Positions 29,786 through 38,295 of a stretch of 64,000 bases of DNA are shown piece after piece (the stretch's first letter is position 1; each line of letters starts with the position of its first letter). A program made the translations under genes and the position numbers. The stretch comes from Brachybacterium saurashtrense. Its GTDB lineage: Bacteria; Actinomycetota; Actinomycetes; Actinomycetales; Dermabacteraceae. Below the pieces are notes generated by a model. The model worked only from the letters and a program-made list of their open reading frames with translations. It was not told the origin of the DNA and did not search any database. Location: positions 2,976,001-3,040,000 of the forward strand of contig NZ_CP031356.1 of the NCBI RefSeq assembly GCF_003355475.1, read 5' to 3'.

Positions 29786-31033
29786 TCAGCCGTCGCAGAG
29801 CGAGGCGTCAGCCGTGCGGGTGGTCGCGCCGTCCACCGAGGGGGAGTGCGAGCTGGTCGCGGTCGGCGTCTCGGCGCGCGGCGTGATGTTGCCCGCGGCA
29901 TCGGACCCGGTGAGCTCGCCCTGCTCCTCGTCGTCATGACCCGCCTCGTCGGCCGGGACAGCCGGCTCGTCGGCCGCGAGAGCCTCGAACACCAGGCCGG
30001 TCGACGCCGAGGGCACGACGCGATTGCGGTCCGTGGGCGCCGGCTCCCAGGGCATCGTGAGGAAGGTGATGTGTTCGGGGTCCACCCGGTTGACCCGCTT
30101 GCCGAGCCCGGCGAGGTCCGAGGCCCGGCTCAGCCCAGGATCCACCGTCAGTGAGGATGTGGTCGCGTCGAGAAAGTCGTAGAGCCGGTCGGGGCGGGCG
30201 AGAATCCGCAAACTGCTCACCTCCTGCACCACCGCGGACATCACCTTCTGCTGGTGGCCCAGACGCGCGATGTCGCTGCCGTCGCCGATTGCATGGCGGG
30301 TGCGGGCCAGGGCCAGGGCGTCCTTCCCGTGGACGATCTGCTCCCCCGCGGGGAGGTCGAGATCGGCGCGCGAGTCCTGGAGCTCATCGGGCAGGCAGAT
30401 GTGCAGCCCGCCTAGCGCGTCGACCATCTCGATGAACCCCTCGAAGTCCAGCTCCACGAAGTGATCGACGTGCACGCCGGTCAGCTCCTCCACGGCGGCG
30501 ACTGAGCAGGCCGGGCCGAAGTTCAGGGCGGAGTTGAGCATGCCGCGTCCGCCGGCGAAGCCGCCGCTGCCGGTGTCGGCGCAGGCGGGTAGGTCCATGA
30601 GGGTGTCGCGCGGCAGCTGCAGCGCGTCAATCCGGTCGTCGTCGGCGGAGAGGTGCGCGAGCACCATCGCGTCGCTGCGCCGGGAGCCGTCGCCCGGCCC
30701 GAAGTCGTCCCCCGCCAGATCGCGGCTGTCCGAGCCGAGCAGCAGGATGTTGAGCGCACCGTCGCTCTCGTGCGAGGCCGATTCCTCCCCTGGCCGCAGC
30801 GGCGCGGTGGCGATGTTCTTCTCAAGATGGCCCACGGTCCCCGCCAGTCCGAGGGTCACTGCGACCACGACGGCCATGGCCAGCGCCGCGAGAGCAGCAA
30901 GGACCCTCCCGCGCCGGTACTGCAGCCTCGGCCGCTCCCGGCGGTGCGACCTCGGGGCGGATCGGCGCAGCGGTCGGCGTCCTCTCGGGGCGTGCTCCAC
31001 GGTCGCTGACACCTCCTTCTGCTCGTCGTGCAT
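29786..31033 (-). CDS. LytR-CpsA-Psr (LCP) family cell-wall glycopolymer ligase
   Basis: Attaches glycopolymers to peptidoglycan on the outer face of the membrane. The 415-residue protein has an Arg-rich cytoplasmic tail, one membrane helix (about residues 44-67) and the LCP domain: ALNILLLGSDSRDLAGDD, RRSDAMVLAHLSADDDRIDALQLPRDTLMDLP (catalytic Arg/Asp set), GVHVDHFVELDFEGFIEMVDALGG and KDALALARTRHAIGDGSDIARLGHQQ. The C-terminal 80 residues are acidic and Thr/Ser-rich, probably disordered. Convergent with the amino-acid permease. Confidence 0.92.
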   Translation of the reverse strand: MHDEQKEVSATVEHAPRGRRPLRRSAPRSHRRERPRLQYRRGRVLAALAALAMAVVVAVTLGLAGTVGHLEKNIATAPLRPGEESASHESDGALNILLLGSDSRDLAGDDFGPGDGSRRSDAMVLAHLSADDDRIDALQLPRDTLMDLPACADTGSGGFAGGRGMLNSALNFGPACSVAAVEELTGVHVDHFVELDFEGFIEMVDALGGLHICLPDELQDSRADLDLPAGEQIVHGKDALALARTRHAIGDGSDIARLGHQQKVMSAVVQEVSSLRILARPDRLYDFLDATTSSLTVDPGLSRASDLAGLGKRVNRVDPEHITFLTMPWEPAPTDRNRVVPSASTGLVFEALAADEPAVPADEAGHDDEEQGELTGSDAAGNITPRAETPTATSSHSPSVDGATTRTADASLCDG

Positions 31034-32084: not shown

Positions 32085-32307
32085 CTCGGCCCCTTCCTTC
32101 CGTCCCGGCCGTGCGCCCGGATCGCTGCGCAGAGGATATCGAGGCGCCACCGATCGCAGCGGGCGCGGCGAGGTGCGCCCAGACGACACTCTTATAGATG
32201 TGACGCCTATCACTCTCGGCGGCCGTGAGGATCTGCCCGGTCGCGACGTCTTCCCTATGTCAGCATTCGCAGGCCCGTACGCACGGGCCGTCAGGAAGGA
32301 GACTCCC

Positions 32308-32817
32308 ATGTCCGAGGCATCGATCCCCCAGACCGGCAAGCAGAAGCAGCGCGAGGCCGAGCTGGCCGCGCAGCAGGAGAACGGCGAGCAGCAGGACACC
32401 GTCCCGCGCGGCCCGCTGCAGACCGACCGCGGTGTGACCACCCTGGACGAGACCGTCGTCGCGAAGATCGCCGGCATGGCGGCCCGCGAGGTCCCCGGCG
32501 TGCACGACATGGGCAACGCCGTGCGCCGCGCCTTCTCCGCCGTCACCGACCGCTTCCCCAACGGCCAGACCAGCGTCACCGGCGGCATCGCGGTGGAGAA
32601 GGGCGACACCCAGGCCGCCATCGACGTGACCGTGGTCGTCGAGTACGGCGCCTCGATCGTCGAGGTCGGCAACGCGATCCGCCGCAACGTCATCGACCAG
32701 GTCGAGGGCACGACCGGCCTCGAGGTCATCGAGGTCAACGTCAACGTGGTCGACGTCCACCTGCCCGGCCAGGACGACGAGCCGGCCGCCGAGCAACGCA
32801 GCACCGACCTGAAGTGA
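32308..32817 (+). CDS. Asp23/Gls24 family envelope stress protein
   Basis: Membrane-associated cytoplasmic protein of 169 residues of the alkaline-shock-protein family. The N-terminal third is charged and Gln-rich; the Asp23 domain runs from TDRGVTTLDETVVAKIAGMAAREVPGVHDMGNA to VVVEYGASIVEVGNAIRRNVIDQVEGTTGLEVIEVNVNVVDVHLP. It is the best-conserved member of the island and probably the filament-forming or scaffold subunit held at the membrane by the anchors encoded next. ATG with AGGAAGGAG just upstream. Confidence 0.92.
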   Translation: MSEASIPQTGKQKQREAELAAQQENGEQQDTVPRGPLQTDRGVTTLDETVVAKIAGMAAREVPGVHDMGNAVRRAFSAVTDRFPNGQTSVTGGIAVEKGDTQAAIDVTVVVEYGASIVEVGNAIRRNVIDQVEGTTGLEVIEVNVNVVDVHLPGQDDEPAAEQRSTDLK

Positions 32818-32881
32818 TCCGCCGGGTGCGGGGACGGGCCGAGCGCCCGCCCCGCACCCGCCCCACGCTCGAGGAGCACGC

Positions 32882-33058
32882 ATGAAGACATCACAGTTCG
32901 CCCTGCTCATCGGTCTGATGCTCGGTGCCGTCCTGGCCTTCGGCAGCGTCGGCCAGTTCTCCCTCGTCCTGCTGCTGTCGGCGATCGGCCTCGCCGTCGG
33001 CATGACGATCGAGGGACGCATCGAGGTGCGAGGACTGACCGATCGCTGGAGGCGGTGA
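32882..33058 (+). CDS. Small membrane protein (DUF2273-like), 58 residues
   Basis: Short ORF of 58 residues with two hydrophobic helices (FALLIGLMLGAVLAFGSVG and FSLVLLLSAIGLAVGMTI) and the basic C-terminus EGRIEVRGLTDRWRR. In Firmicutes and Actinobacteria, small two-helix DUF2273 proteins lie next to Asp23 genes and help tether Asp23 to the membrane. It starts 64 bp after the first Asp23 gene and its stop is 1 bp before the next start. Confidence 0.8.
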   Translation: MKTSQFALLIGLMLGAVLAFGSVGQFSLVLLLSAIGLAVGMTIEGRIEVRGLTDRWRR

Positions 33059-33059
33059 C

Positions 33060-33476
33060 ATGTCCACCGCCATCGCCCTCGACCCCGCCGCCGTCGAGAG
33101 CCCGTCACCGACCGTGACGCCCGCCGAGGATCGCGGCGTGACCAGCATCCCCGCACAGGTCGTCGCCCGGGTCGCCGAGCAGGTCGCCTCCGAGGCGGCG
33201 CTCGTCGGCTCCGGCGCGGGCGGGGTCCTCGGCGTCGGCGCGCGCCGTGACTTCGACTCCCGCCCCTCGGCCCGGTGCGAGCTCTACGGCCGCACCGCCG
33301 TGCTGAGCCTCGACGTCGGCGTGGAGTTCCCGACGCCGCTCGCCCCCGCCTTGACCGCCCTGCGCGACCTGGTCCGCGAGCGGGTCCAGCACCTGACCGG
33401 TCTCGAGGTGGGGCGTCTGGACGTCTCGATCTCCTGGCTCCGCCCCACCAGCACCGGGAGGAGGACCCTGCGATGA
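33060..33476 (+). CDS. Second Asp23-family protein
   Basis: Protein of 138 residues with a divergent Asp23 domain: TSIPAQVVARVAEQVASEAALVGSGAGGVLGVGAR, SARCELYGRTAVLSLDVGVEFPTPLAPALTALRDLVRERVQHLTGLEVGRLDVSISWL. It is the usual partner of DUF2273 and DUF6286 genes in actinobacteria. ATG overlaps nothing upstream (1 bp gap) and shares 4 bp (ATGA) with the next gene. Confidence 0.85.
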   Translation: MSTAIALDPAAVESPSPTVTPAEDRGVTSIPAQVVARVAEQVASEAALVGSGAGGVLGVGARRDFDSRPSARCELYGRTAVLSLDVGVEFPTPLAPALTALRDLVRERVQHLTGLEVGRLDVSISWLRPTSTGRRTLR

Positions 33477-34027
33477 GCAGCGCCCCGCCTCGCCTGGTCC
33501 GCCGTCCCGCGCGCAGCGTCCCCGCAGCGCTGCTCGGCGTCCTGCTGCTGACCGGGGGCCTCGTCGGCGTCTGGCTGCTGGGCAGCCTGCTGCTGGACGG
33601 CTCCTGGCCCGCCTCCGCCCAGGGCGCGCTCGCCGACATCGGCGCGCGTCGCCTGGACTCCACGCCCGTGCTCATCGCGGCCGGAGTCCTCGCGGCGCTC
33701 GGCCTCGTCCTGCTGCTCGCGGCAGCGATCCCCGGCCGCCCCTCGCGACGCCTCGTGCTGGGCGGCGAGGTGCCCGGCGCGAGCGCCGTCCCGCACCGCG
33801 ACCTCGGCCGACGCATCACCCGACGGGTGGAGACCGTGGACGGGGTGCACAGCGCCCGCGCCACCCTCCGCGGGCGGCGACTGGACGTGCTGGCCCGCAC
33901 CGTCGTCGACGACTCCGAGGCCGTGCTGCGCGGAGCCCGCGCGGCCGCCGAGCAGGCCGTCGACGAGCTCCGCCCCGAGACCCCGCTCCGCACCCGTGTC
34001 CGGGTCCAGCGGATCAGGAAGGACTGA
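33473..34027 (+). CDS. Membrane-anchored Asp23-associated protein (DUF6286-like)
   Basis: Protein of 184 residues with two membrane helices (about residues 16-40 and 64-87) and a cytoplasmic domain RRLVLGGEVPGASAVPHRDLGRRITRRVETVDGVHSARATLRGRRLDVLARTVVDDSEAV. The C-terminal fold, a strand-helix-strand with AVDELRPETPLRTRVRVQRI, resembles the Asp23/AmaP C-terminal domain. Probably an envelope anchor of the Asp23 complex. Overlaps the previous gene by 4 bp and lies 3 bp before the next. Confidence 0.8.
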   Translation: MSSAPPRLVRRPARSVPAALLGVLLLTGGLVGVWLLGSLLLDGSWPASAQGALADIGARRLDSTPVLIAAGVLAALGLVLLLAAAIPGRPSRRLVLGGEVPGASAVPHRDLGRRITRRVETVDGVHSARATLRGRRLDVLARTVVDDSEAVLRGARAAAEQAVDELRPETPLRTRVRVQRIRKD

Positions 34028-34030
34028 CCC

Positions 34031-34693
34031 ATGCGCTCCGTCTCCGGTCCCCGCAACCGGCTCGTCCTCGTGGCGGCCGCCGTGCTCGCCCTGCTGGCCG
34101 CCGCCTGGACGGCCTCGGCCGCTCTCGGCCTCGCCGAGCGTTGGCCGCGCGCCGAGGCGGTCCTCCCCCACGGGGACTCGACGCCCGCCTCGCTCGCCGC
34201 CGCGCATCAGCAGTGGCTGCTCCCCGTCGCCGCGGCGGCGAGCGTCCTGGTGGTGCTGCTCGGGCTCTGGCTGCTCCTGGCCCAGGTCCCCTCCCGGGTC
34301 CGCACGCCGACGCTGCGTCTGCGCGACGCGGACGGCGGCCTCCTGGGGTCCCTCGAGCCGGCTGTGCTCGAGCGCGCCCTCACCGAGCACGTCGAGCAGG
34401 TCGCCGGGGTCGTGGACGCGACCGTCCAGCTCAGCGGCGCGGTCTCTGCTCCGGCGGTGCAGGCCTCGGTGACGATCGCCGAGGACGCGGAGACGGCCTG
34501 GGCCGTCGAGGCGGTCCGGGGCCTGCTCGCGGACGACATCCGCACCGTCCTCGGCGCCGAGGCGCGGACCGTGGACCTGCTGGTCCACCTGCGCTCCGCC
34601 TCAGCGCCCTCGCGCGCCGTGCTCGGCGGGCATGCCGAGTCGTCGGCCGCCCCGTCGGCCTCCCCCGCGGGTCGGGCGACGCATCCCGCATGA
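34031..34693 (+). CDS. AmaP-like alkaline shock membrane anchor
   Basis: Protein of 220 residues with a membrane hairpin at the N-terminus (helices about 10-32 and 63-84, the topology of AmaP, the Asp23 membrane anchor) and a cytoplasmic domain (LEPAVLERALTEHVEQVAGVVDATVQLSGAVSAPAVQASVTIAED). The tail is Ala/Ser/Pro-rich. Stop overlaps the ECF sigma start (ATGA), so all are co-translated. The name is by analogy with Staphylococcus AmaP. Confidence 0.75.
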   Translation: MRSVSGPRNRLVLVAAAVLALLAAAWTASAALGLAERWPRAEAVLPHGDSTPASLAAAHQQWLLPVAAAASVLVVLLGLWLLLAQVPSRVRTPTLRLRDADGGLLGSLEPAVLERALTEHVEQVAGVVDATVQLSGAVSAPAVQASVTIAEDAETAWAVEAVRGLLADDIRTVLGAEARTVDLLVHLRSASAPSRAVLGGHAESSAAPSASPAGRATHPA

Positions 34694-35283
34694 GCCCCGA
34701 TCCCGGACAGGAGGAGCGCGCGCTGGTCCTGCGCGCGCAGGACGGCGAGACGGCCGCGTTCGAGCGGCTGGTCGACCGCCACCAGGGACGCCTGTTCAGG
34801 ATCGCGTTCATGGTGGTCGGCGACCGCCAGGAGGCCGAGGACCTGGTCCAGGAGACCCTGGTGCTGGCCTGGCGCCGGCTGCACCTCCTCGAGGAGCCGG
34901 CCGCCTTCCGCGGATGGGTCGCTCAGATCTGCTCCCGCTCCGCGACCGACGTGGTGCGGCGGCGTGCCCGTCGGGCCACCGCTCCCGCCGCCGCGGAGGA
35001 CCTCGAGCCCGCGCTCGAGAGCTCCCCGGACACCGGGCGGACCAGCCCCGGCGCAGCGGCCGACCCAGCGCGCAGCGCCCTGGTCAACGCCCAGATGAGC
35101 GCCCTGGCCCGGGTGCTGTCGACGCTCGACCCCGCGCTGCGCCTGTGCTGGGTGCTGAGGGAGGTCGACGGCATGTCGTATCGCGAGATCTGCGCCGCCG
35201 TCGACGCCTCGGAGCCCACGGTCCGAGGCCGGATCGCCCGTGCCCGCGCCCGCATCGTCGACGAGATGGAGGAATGGAGGTGA
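34690..35283 (+). CDS. ECF-type RNA polymerase sigma factor
   Basis: Sigma-70 family factor of 197 residues with sigma-2 (AFERLVDRHQGRLFRIAFMVVGDRQEAEDLVQETLVLAWRRLHLL) and sigma-4 (LSTLDPALRLCWVLREVDGMSYREICAAVDASEPTVRGRIARARARI) domains. An Ala/Glu/Asp-rich linker of about 45 residues joins them. It is embedded in the Asp23 operon and followed by two Asp23-like genes in place of a recognisable zinc-type anti-sigma gene. It probably directs transcription of the island or of other envelope-stress genes. Confidence 0.9.
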   Translation: MSPDPGQEERALVLRAQDGETAAFERLVDRHQGRLFRIAFMVVGDRQEAEDLVQETLVLAWRRLHLLEEPAAFRGWVAQICSRSATDVVRRRARRATAPAAAEDLEPALESSPDTGRTSPGAAADPARSALVNAQMSALARVLSTLDPALRLCWVLREVDGMSYREICAAVDASEPTVRGRIARARARIVDEMEEWR

Positions 35284-35288
35284 CCGAG

Positions 35289-35798
35289 ATGCCGCACCAC
35301 GACGCCGCCCGCGAGGACCCCGCCGCGACCCGACGGTACCTGGACCTGATCCGCTCGGTGCACGAGGAGTGGGACCGCCTTGAGGAGGCCGGGGACACCT
35401 CGGTCCAGCTCTCCGGCTCCGCCCTCGCCACGATCAAGGAATCGGTGCGCGCCGACGCCCGCCACGGCGCGCACGTGCACATGCCGCCGACCCCGGCCGG
35501 CCCGTTCACCGTGTCCGAGCTGACCCTGCGCACGCTGGTGCGCCGCGAGATCGACGCGATCCCCGGCGCCCGGGCTCTGCGCACCGCCTTCGAGCACGAC
35601 GAGGACTCCGCTGCGGAGCGCCGCACCCTCGGCCTGCCCACCCGGGCGCGCTGCCGCGTCTCCGCACACCTGGGGACCCCGGACCTGCCCGGCCTCGCCG
35701 AGCGGATCCGCGAGGCGGTGCGCAGCGCCGCCGAGACCGAGCTGGGGCTGACCGGCCTCACCGTCGACGTCCACATCGAGGACCTCCATGAACACTGA
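35289..35798 (+). CDS. Asp23-like protein downstream of the ECF sigma gene
   Basis: Protein of 169 residues. The N-terminal half is charged and helical (ATRRYLDLIRSVHEEWDRLEEAG, SALATIKESVRADARHGAHVHMPP) and the C-terminal half has the Asp23-type strand-helix arrangement (TLRTLVRREIDAIPGARALRTAFEH, RCRVSAHLGTPDLPGLAERIREAVRSAAETELGLTGLTVDVHIEDL). I chose the ATG at 35289, which has GGAGG at 35276-35280; an earlier ATG at 35274 and GTG at 35280 are alternatives. It takes the place of an anti-sigma gene. Confidence 0.72.
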   Translation: MPHHDAAREDPAATRRYLDLIRSVHEEWDRLEEAGDTSVQLSGSALATIKESVRADARHGAHVHMPPTPAGPFTVSELTLRTLVRREIDAIPGARALRTAFEHDEDSAAERRTLGLPTRARCRVSAHLGTPDLPGLAERIREAVRSAAETELGLTGLTVDVHIEDLHEH

Positions 35799-36135
35799 GC
35801 CCGTGCCCACCGGCCCTGCGCCCTGCTCCCGTCTCGACGTCGCCGACCTCGTCGGCGCAGTCACGGCCGTGCCGGGAGTGAGCGGGCTCGAGCCCGGCAT
35901 CGCGACGACACTGCGCACCCTCGATGCGCGATTGCGCCGCAGCGGCGCCTCCTCCGCACGCTACGGGCTGGTCGTCGACCGCGTCAGCGGCGAGGTGACC
36001 GTCGAGATCGGCGTGGCGGGGCCGCTGCCCGTGCGCCGCATCGTCGAGGACGTCCAGCGCACCGTCCAGAGGGCGGCCATCGGGTCCGCCGTCCCGCGAG
36101 TTCTCGTGCGGGTGCAGTCGCTCTCGATGCCATGA
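35788..36135 (+). CDS. Short Asp23-like protein ending the island
   Basis: Protein of 115 residues: LDVADLVGAVTAVPGVSGLEPGIATTLRTLDARLRRSG, then YGLVVDRVSGEVTVEIGVAGPLPVRRIVEDVQRTVQRAAIGSAVPRVLVRVQSL. The VP-GV-GL start and the strand-helix end are those of the Asp23 fold. It overlaps the previous gene by 11 bp and is the last gene of the operon; 76 bp separate it from the thiolase. Confidence 0.72.
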   Translation: MNTEPVPTGPAPCSRLDVADLVGAVTAVPGVSGLEPGIATTLRTLDARLRRSGASSARYGLVVDRVSGEVTVEIGVAGPLPVRRIVEDVQRTVQRAAIGSAVPRVLVRVQSLSMP

Positions 36136-37381: not shown

Positions 37382-38295
37382 CCGGGCCGATGCACCCCGA
37401 CCAGCTCGTGCTCACCGAGCAGGTCGCGACCCGGCTGATCACCGACCTGCTGCCCGGCACGGACCCGGCGACCGTGCGGCTTCTGGAGACCTCGGCGACG
37501 ACGAGCACCGTGGTGCGGATCGGGGAGGATCTCGCGGCGCGCTTCCCGCTCGAGCCCGCGGACCCGGACATCGCCCGGGCGGCCCTCGCGGCCGAGCACG
37601 AGGCGATGGGCGAGTTCGCGGCCGTCAGCCCGCTGCCGGCCCCGGAGCCGGTCGCGCTCGGGGAGCCCTCGGCCGCGTTCCCGATGCCCTGGTCAGTGCA
37701 GACCTGGGTCCCGGGCGAGGTCGCGGACCCCGTCGTCCTCGAGGGCTCCGACGCCGCGGCCGACGACCTCGCCGCCCTGCTCCTCGCGCTGCGCGCCGTC
37801 CCGACCGGGGGCCGGCGCTTCCGGGGTCCCGGCCGCGGCGGCGACCTCACCGCCCACGAGGACTGGGTGCGCGAGTGCCTCGAACGTTCCCGCGGCCTGC
37901 TGCCCGCCGACCAGCTCGCCGCCAGCTGGGAGCGGTGGCGCACCCTCGAGCGGCGGGATCCGGACGTGATGAGCCACCGCGACCTGATCCCCGCGAACCT
38001 GCTCACCGCGGGCGGGCGGCTCGTCGGCGTGCTCGATGCCGGCGGGTACTCCCCCGCCGATCCGGCGCTGGATCTCGTCGGCGCCTGGCACCTGCTGGAC
38101 GCGGAGCGGCGCGACCGACTGCGGCAGAGCCTGGGCTGCCCAGACCTCGAGTGGGAGCGCGGGGCGGCCTGGGCGTTCGTGCAGTCCATCGGGCTCGTCT
38201 GGTACTACGAGGACTCGAACCCGACGATGGCTCAGCTCGGCCGCTCGACCTGTCAGCGGCTGCTGGAGGAGCCGCCGCCCGCGGGCGGGGCCTGA
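37378..38295 (+). CDS. Phosphotransferase-family kinase (APH fold)
   Basis: Protein of 305 residues of the aminoglycoside-phosphotransferase superfamily. The N-lobe has VRIGEDLAARFPLEPADPDIARAALAAEHEAMGEF, and the catalytic region is RDPDVMSHRDLIPANLLTAGGRLVGVLDAGGYSPADPALDLVGAWHLLD, where HRD replaces the usual HGD and DAG stands for the metal DxG. The GTG start overlaps the thiolase stop (GTGA); an ATG at 37390 is an alternative. The 3' end overlaps the convergent GNAT by 43 bp. Confidence 0.8.
   Translation: MTGPMHPDQLVLTEQVATRLITDLLPGTDPATVRLLETSATTSTVVRIGEDLAARFPLEPADPDIARAALAAEHEAMGEFAAVSPLPAPEPVALGEPSAAFPMPWSVQTWVPGEVADPVVLEGSDAAADDLAALLLALRAVPTGGRRFRGPGRGGDLTAHEDWVRECLERSRGLLPADQLAASWERWRTLERRDPDVMSHRDLIPANLLTAGGRLVGVLDAGGYSPADPALDLVGAWHLLDAERRDRLRQSLGCPDLEWERGAAWAFVQSIGLVWYYEDSNPTMAQLGRSTCQRLLEEPPPAGGA

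Follow-up and report, generated by a model that had tools for sequence, protein, structure and literature searches.

An Asp23 gene island of Brachybacterium saurashtrense with an ECF sigma factor that probably drives it and a candidate anti-sigma factor carrying an Asp23-like domain

In Staphylococcus aureus, Asp23 is encoded in a cluster together with small and AmaP-type membrane proteins, and the genes of this Asp23-AmaP cluster are SigB-dependent. Among the extracytoplasmic function (ECF) sigma factors, the groups ECF286 and ECF292 adjoin soluble Asp23-family proteins which are predicted to be their anti-sigma factors and for which, according to PMC8999054, experimental data are lacking. 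In Streptomyces venezuelae, expression of an Asp23/Gls24 gene falls after ethanol shock, without any tie to an adjacent sigma factor in the accessible part of PMC9769785; in the text of PMC6767563, the term 'Asp23' is absent and 'alkaline shock' occurs in a reference only. Among the literature matches listed, none was an experimental investigation of an ECF/Asp23 pair from actinobacteria, with most subscription journals outside the coverage of the search. Here, we describe an island of eight genes, g1 to g8, in a stretch of 64,000 nucleotides of the Brachybacterium saurashtrense genome (contig NZ_CP031356.1, positions 2,976,001 to 3,040,000; hereafter the window), which encodes Asp23-like and membrane proteins, an ECF sigma factor (g6) and, directly behind it, a soluble protein with an Asp23-like C-terminal domain (g7).

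We propose that this island is a self-transcribing envelope module in which g6 drives g1 to g8 from a promoter of the form GTGAGG-N16-CGTC and g7 is the soluble cognate anti-sigma factor with an Asp23-like regulatory domain, a reading to which we assign a probability of about 0.64. Recognition of this promoter by g6 would lead to transcription of all eight genes, its own included, and two helices of g7, the presumed remainder of a class I, zinc-binding anti-sigma (ZAS) domain, would hold the sigma factor, the C-terminal domain being the presumed regulatory part. The putative building blocks of an Asp23 scaffold are g1 and g3, which g2, g4 and g5 would anchor to the membrane. Given the relationship of the C-terminal domain of g7 to these two proteins, docking of g7 to this scaffold would be the likeliest input; disturbance of the scaffold or of the underlying membrane would then change the contact between g7 and the sigma factor, so that the latter is freed and more scaffold is made. 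We infer that g7 of the window inherits the anti-sigma function and inhibits the sigma factor, that the sigma factor uses the predicted promoter, that the scaffold is present in the window organism and that g7 docks on it, as well as the sign of the response and, as a whole, the control of g7 and hence of the sigma factor by the Asp23 scaffold.

The promoter motif was first spotted by eye in an alignment, and controls were run afterwards. The element GTGASG-N14-GACGTC was found at exact spacing and with at most one mismatch upstream of g1 in all 14 islands examined, which comprise nine loci from within the genus (that of the window among them), those of Enemella, Knoellia and Nocardiopsis coralli, and two Dietzia plasmids. 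It was also found upstream of the sigma factor gene in 3 of 3 genomes in which sigma, g7 and g8 lie apart from the other genes. Among the 17 target upstream regions, 14 carried no mismatch and three carried one, compared with 0–1 mismatches in 2 of 169 control upstream regions, which belong to a gene outside the island at locus L054 and to a gene beside the sigma factor gene at L060 (L and G denote our numbering of loci and genomes). Within one and the same genome, the spacers differ between the upstream regions of g1 and sigma; several target sequences are near copies of each other. The presence of the motif in front of g1 (14/14) and of the sigma gene of the three split genomes indicates that g6 probably transcribes the island including its own gene. 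A palindrome located 10–11 bp 5′ of the −35 element, which we liken to a CRP/GlxR site, was detected with up to two mismatches in 13 of the 17 target upstream regions and, at any position, in 7 of 169 controls; it is poor at L056 (three mismatches) and missing from this place in L106 and both Dietzia plasmids. An A-rich tract stands in its place in L106, L191 and L192. The near-fixed distance between palindrome and promoter suggests joint control by a cAMP-type regulator.

The association of g7 with the sigma factor was confirmed from both sides. A class-wide search with a g7 profile, blind to the sigma factor, gave matches in 52 of 394 genomes; at the 29 loci fetched from it, which leave out the window's own genome, a relative of the sigma factor was located directly upstream of g7 in 25 cases by script and in three more (L082, L088, L099) by inspection, while at L102 no relative of g6 directly preceded the g7 match. 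For 105 of 107 sigma factors, from loci found mainly through the sigma factor, the next gene on the same strand was labelled as g7 or Asp23; the next genes of the second sigma factors of L140 and L154 were unlabelled. Three of 110 sigma-labelled genes had been dropped because no gene on the same strand followed them: that of an additional, different sigma factor at L057, that of L134, and that of L174, which lies at a contig end. In the window, g7 lies directly downstream of g6, which is the position of a ZAS class I anti-sigma factor; no hydrophobic segment was counted in g7, and its C-terminal half is Asp23-like by profile, with a score below the Pfam cut-off.

The relationship of g7 to anti-sigma factors became apparent through its orthologues. 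In 48 of 98 sigma-g7 pairs (Nocardia, Pseudonocardia, Streptomyces and others), g7 carries the motif H-x(2-4)-C-x2-C. The N-terminus of these zinc-type proteins typically reads LxCGRD...HExxCPHC, followed by a helix resembling DLLGRIMSAVRAxxRRG and by the Asp23-like domain. Comparison of the zinc-type N-terminus (46 sequences) with 19 ZAS-motif proteins, each of which directly follows an ECF sigma factor in the order to which the window organism belongs, revealed a match over 66 columns (hhalign 92.1%, E 6e-7), as opposed to 0.1–0.5% for control comparisons with g1, g2 and the sigma factor. In a search of PDB sequences, a zinc-type profile of 11 sequences ranked the anti-sigma factor RsiW (5wuq) first (E 0.0063), followed by RAD50 (0.022) and chain B of 3hug (0.025), an entry that holds a Mycobacterium tuberculosis anti-sigma factor together with its sigma factor; a mixed profile of zinc-type and window-type sequences placed 3hug chain B first (0.12) and RsiW second (0.48).

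The C-terminal halves of window-type and zinc-type g7 are surely homologous by profile comparison (hhalign 99.1%, E 4e-19), and both resemble g1 (62.9% for the window type, 97.1% for the zinc type). For the N-termini, the window type matched the latter half of the zinc-type stretch with 25.9% (E 7e-4), a value that 60 column shuffles did not approach (≤1.3%), and addition of the sister rows L092 and L100 raised it to 92.6% (E 4.5e-7). In L092, which was scored as zinc-less because the histidine is absent, the CxxC is kept, and in L100 the motif is lost; together, these two sequences reached 98.3% against the zinc type and 80.8% against ZAS anti-sigma factors. With these rows, a series of degeneration of the zinc motif is plausible. 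For other zinc-free N-termini, of the Rhodococcus/Cellulomonas type, comparison with the zinc type yielded 25.5%, with ZAS anti-sigma factors 2.3% and with the window type 4.4%. AlphaFold2 models contained two long N-terminal helices (residues 11–33 and 37–59) and an alpha/beta domain for g7 of the window (predicted local distance difference test score, pLDDT, 87.6); the model of a Nocardia orthologue (pLDDT 86.5) has four helices and the same kind of domain. Searches with these models by Foldseek and VIA-align matched mostly the C-terminal domain (MamM C-terminal domain, EscJ, MS ring, acyl-CoA synthetases, ZnT3), and a functional reading of these matches was dropped because they share a common alpha/beta arrangement; no anti-sigma chain was among the structure matches listed for whole g7, the N-terminal part of which was not searched alone.

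A quick sigma factor tree of 98 rows was rooted at the midpoint; it omits eight duplicate loci as well as the second sigma factor of L140, and its branches are long at L092/L100 and L080/L091. This tree placed the clade of the window inside a branch of 62 rows that holds all 48 zinc-type rows, with a Shimodaira-Hasegawa-like approximate likelihood ratio test (SH-aLRT) support of 99. On this tree, the zinc state needs two changes, compared with a mean of about 33 after shuffling. Apparently, the lineage of the window is likely to have lost the zinc ligands and to have retained two helices. The preliminary description of the locus had noted a charged helical N-terminus of g7 and concluded that a classical anti-sigma factor is lacking; this conclusion is not supported, as the N-terminus is best explained, via its orthologues, as a degenerate ZAS domain. 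An anti-sigma factor is thus probably encoded at the expected place, and a degenerate anti-sigma factor directly after the sigma factor is the most likely interpretation of the sequences.

Several results speak against this interpretation. The best of 60 column shuffles of the zinc-type profile still reached 78.8% (E 1.7e-5) against ZAS anti-sigma factors, although none attained 92.1%. The Pfam family zf-HC2 was matched by none of ten g7 orthologues, zinc-type proteins included, at E values up to 10; the anti-sigma link is therefore based on profile-profile and PDB-sequence comparison instead. Well-supported branches of the sigma tree alone force one change of zinc state and the nesting is not firm, so that zinc loss in the lineage of the window is likely and not proven. 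All 12 window-type g7 proteins lack both a cysteine ahead of residue 116 and the ligand pattern C-xn-H-x3-C-x2-C, and the window-type N-terminus, which is shorter than that of the zinc type, has no direct match to ZAS anti-sigma factors (0.4% alone, 0.7% with L092 and L100). These last features, together with the CRP-like palindrome kept at a fixed distance in most upstream regions, would also agree with a g7 that is no longer an anti-sigma factor in the clade of the window and acts as an Asp23 scaffold protein or adaptor or as a co-activator of the sigma factor, the latter being governed via its own transcription, e.g. through the CRP/GlxR-like site. We regard this explanation, the most probable of the alternatives, as unlikely: the helix aligned with the last ZAS-type helix (IKESVRADARHG in the window) is among the best-conserved parts of the N-terminus, and g7 still directly follows the sigma gene, with which it has stayed together in all three split genomes. 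Class I anti-sigma domains often lack zinc.

The distribution of the genes was determined in 58 genomes, 36 of the genus (that of the window included; several are incomplete assemblies) and 22 of the order. Within the genus, each of g1, sigma and g7 was found in nine of the 36 genomes, the nine being identical for all three. For g7, presence was counted at E < 1e-30; weaker matches came from the remnant of G007 and from rows around E 0.01. In six of the nine genomes the genes are found at one place; five of these islands, including the window, are colinear from g1 to g8, and in G001 the genes are broken by contig ends with flanks as in the window. The island is split in G017, G025 and G029, where g1 to g5 are located at one place and sigma, g7 and g8 at another, unlinked one. 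Among the split loci are L113 of B. subflavum and L112 of B. halotolerans, where the sigma factor would have to act in trans. The separate position of sigma, g7 and g8 in 3 of 3 split genomes characterises them as a separable module which nevertheless co-occurs with the scaffold genes. In G007, at the same site between lytR and lysR (L073:7223-7716), the first codons of g1 run into remnants of g7 and g8; this locus is a deletion scar of the island. The genes lytR and lysR flank the island in G001 and the scar in G007. In other families, the sigma-g7 pair and the g1 island are often arranged divergently (e.g. L066, L071), or the pair precedes the island (Nocardia). Enemella, Knoellia, Nocardiopsis coralli and two Dietzia plasmids also carry g1 to g8 in colinear order; the gene order is thus not a chance assembly.

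These data also bear on the model of the preliminary description in its strict form, according to which g1, g3 or g8 themselves hold the sigma factor at the membrane and g7 is one more subunit of an Asp23 lattice. The shared occurrence of g1, sigma and g7 in the nine genomes, mostly encoded together, would be in agreement with it. However, scaffold islands exist without an adjacent sigma factor or g7 (L067, L069 and L072, with both flanks seen), nearly all sigma factors adjoin a g7- or Asp23-labelled next gene, and an anti-sigma relationship was revealed by g7 only, which makes this model improbable compared with sequestration of the sigma factor by g7.

With regard to the promoter, other observations argue against its assignment to g6. 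The upstream regions and genomes compared are related and not independent. A stricter pattern, with YT behind it, is also enriched in the absence of the sigma factor: 22 matches were counted in 27 sigma-less genomes of the genus (16 of which have at least one), versus 28 in the nine sigma-bearing genomes and two for a reversed-pattern control in all 36. The pattern alone is consequently not diagnostic. At loci of other families, outside the clade of the window, the strict form with N14-GACGTC was not found among forward matches. A looser form, GTGAS-N14..17-CGTC, was detected forward and upstream of the sigma gene in eight loci of other families (L132, L149, L150, L152, L153, L155, L159, L166), six of which are near-identical Rhodococcus sequences with a spacer 1–2 bp shorter; forward matches also occurred in the window-type loci L112 and L113 and reverse-strand matches in L100, L152, L153, L156 and L182, the last ending in GACGTC. 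We take the matches in other families to reflect a different promoter specificity and not as support. The six Rhodococcus loci (L149, L150, L152, L153, L155, L159) share a near-identical GTGASCTACGTCATA(A)GATTACGTC upstream of the sigma gene, which may be the form that the promoter takes in this lineage, its spacer being shorter.

In the window genome, the stricter pattern has three matches, of which only the one at 32225 is in promoter position; the other two lie in DNA called coding, in one case judged solely by an identical match in another genome. With a single strict match in promoter position, the strict-motif regulon of this genome would be the island alone. In the genome with the deletion scar, two bases of the −35 element are altered (GTAAAG) and GACGTC is intact. 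An alternative in which the conserved promoter serves a different sigma factor, with an unrelated regulon for g6, as the matches in 16 sigma-less genomes may suggest, is the least probable explanation: it disagrees with the position of the strict matches in the window genome, with the decay of the −35 element expected once the sigma factor is gone, and with the motif preceding the sigma gene itself in split genomes.

The island appears to be mobile. In Dietzia kunjamensis strain 313, all eight genes are carried by each of two different plasmids (L191:4959-8787 and L192:3498-7350), one of which is mobilizable with a MobF relaxase, and on each the island is near a YoeB/antitoxin pair. In the sigma tree, Brachybacterium sigma factors alternate with those from Enemella, Knoellia and Nocardiopsis coralli. 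The simplest reading is horizontal transfer.

Table 1. Predicted genes and regulatory elements of the Asp23 island, in coordinates of the window
Feature	Coordinates	Strand	Remarks
CRP/GlxR-like palindrome TGTGACGCCTATCACT	32199..32214	+	10 bp 5′ of −35 element
Predicted sigma-dependent promoter: −35 GTGAGG 32225-32230, 14 bp, GACGTC 32245-32250 (−10 core CGTC)	32225..32250	+	
g1, Asp23 protein, 169 amino acids (aa)	32308..32817	+	PF03780 E 1.8e-27
g2, DUF2273-like small membrane protein, 58 aa, two hydrophobic segments	32882..33058	+	orthologue matches to PF10031, below cut-off
g3, second Asp23-like protein, 138 aa	33060..33476	+	profile comparison with g1
g4, DUF6286 membrane protein, 184 aa, two hydrophobic segments	33473..34027	+	PF19803 70.9 bits
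g5, AmaP-like membrane protein, 220 aa, two hydrophobic segments	34031..34693	+	NF033218 38.8 bits, E 7.7e-10
g6, ECF sigma factor, 197 aa	34690..35283	+	Sigma70_r2 E 1.6e-14, Sigma70_r4_2 E 1.3e-10
g7, proposed soluble anti-sigma factor: degenerate ZAS helices ~11-59 and Asp23-like domain ~62-167	35289..35798	+	
g8, small, probably Asp23-like, 115 aa, third gene of sigma module	35788..36135	+	weak Asp23 matches along length

All eight same-strand genes of the preliminary description were recovered at their positions (Table 1). The 4-bp overlaps that it mentioned are those of g3/g4 (33473-33476) and g5/g6 (34690-34693), and g7 and g8 overlap by 11 bp (35788-35798). The start codon ATG of g7 at 35289 is 5 bp past the sigma stop codon, a distance that is the same for the called starts in the relatives L054, L057, L106, L108 and L109; a 4-bp overlap of g6 and g7 results only with the alternative start GTG at 35280.

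Of the four Asp23-like proteins originally proposed, two are firm, the C-terminal half of g7 is well founded and g8 is only probable. With 96.3 bits against a curated cut-off of 28, g1 is the sole Asp23 candidate of the window above the threshold of PF03780, whereas g3 (17.4 bits), g8 (13.9) and g7 (12.2) are below it. Profile comparison (hhalign) related g3 to g1 with 98.8% (E 6e-17), was weak for g8 (8.6% against g1, 37.0% against g3) and gave no match between the C-terminal parts of g4 and g5 and g1 (1.0% and 0.3%). The claim of three membrane proteins holds, clearly for the DUF6286 protein g4 and with weaker labels for the window's own g5 and g2: g5 scored below the AmaP cut-off of 55 bits and can be called AmaP-like only, and g2 had no match to DUF2273 (PF10031) and hence did not reach the cut-off of this family, with five of six orthologues tried scoring 15–22.7 bits (cut-off 25.4) and the sixth giving no match. 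In g6, sigma70 regions 2 and 4 score above their cut-offs and no further large domain is present, in line with an ECF sigma factor. The described arrangement of one such sigma factor in the cluster, directly followed by a partner with an Asp23 domain, was borne out, and co-occurrence, promoter motif and recurrent order give it the character of a unit. The window genome (one contig, 3.72 Mb), which groups with Brachybacterium by the named relatives of g6, contains a single close copy of the g6 sigma factor, and an Asp23 search of this genome at E values up to 1 gave no match outside the island.

Near the island, the window encodes a LytR-CpsA-Psr family protein (29786-31033, − strand) and an APH-family phosphotransferase (37390-38295, + strand). 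In seven Nocardia loci (L116, L117, L118, L122, L123, L124, L125), an extra gene of 108–109 aa, unlabelled by profiles, is located before g1; towards the end of its product, a VVTELD stretch bears some resemblance to the final strand of Asp23-like proteins. In Asp23 islands of some other actinobacteria, at 13 of 60 loci examined, a small basic protein is encoded that contains a sequence similar to REHHPDIGGDPARYMAELAEVDRRF, which may resemble the HPD region of J-domains (L069:6278-6541, − strand; L071:8160-8522, + strand; L143, L149, L150, L152, L153, L155, L156, L158, L159, L160, L165), and Pfam gave no DnaJ match in the two such proteins tested.

Taken together, the island represents a real system that recurs, and its kind has in part been predicted in the literature. 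Beyond the printed prediction, our analysis adds the ZAS relationship of g7, the common promoter motif, the split loci and the carriage by plasmids. Asp23 proteins are widespread, and a fusion of an anti-sigma-type and an Asp23-like domain beside a sigma factor that apparently drives Asp23 genes provides a direct and testable regulatory link. The prediction of Asp23-family anti-sigma factors thereby becomes specific with respect to the sigma-binding helices, the promoter that should respond and the natural genomes in which the two halves are apart. A more far-reaching version, which we put forward tentatively, is that of an anti-sigma factor made of scaffold material: g7 might dock via its Asp23 domain in a membrane Asp23 lattice, the occupancy or integrity of which would determine the amount of free sigma factor and thus the rebuilding of the lattice. 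Such a homeostatic loop would gauge an intracellular membrane coat and travel as a mobile cassette between actinobacterial families. If this is true, the clade of the window would, with the loss of zinc, have exchanged a possible redox or zinc input for sensing of the scaffold alone.

Among described systems, ECF286 and ECF292 resemble the locus by gene neighbourhood, as g6 too adjoins a soluble protein, g7, that is Asp23-family-like (PMC8999054); the accessible part of this source is silent on a ZAS relationship, a promoter, plasmid carriage and a wider island. With ZAS or class I anti-sigma factors (RsiW 5wuq, 3hug chain B, RsrA-type), g7 shares the position right after the sigma gene and, via its zinc-type orthologues, a matching N-terminus, but it differs from them in having no counted hydrophobic segment in the window, an Asp23-like C-terminal domain and zinc ligands that are lost in its clade. 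The sigma-less actinobacterial Asp23 islands L067, L069 and L072 match the window in the succession of g1, DUF2273-like, g3-like, DUF6286-like and AmaP-like genes; unlike in the window, no sigma gene and no g7 are adjacent to them. Compared with the Asp23-AmaP cluster of Staphylococcus aureus, the island of the window is distinguished by several Asp23-like paralogues, a DUF6286 protein and a dedicated ECF sigma factor with its partner.

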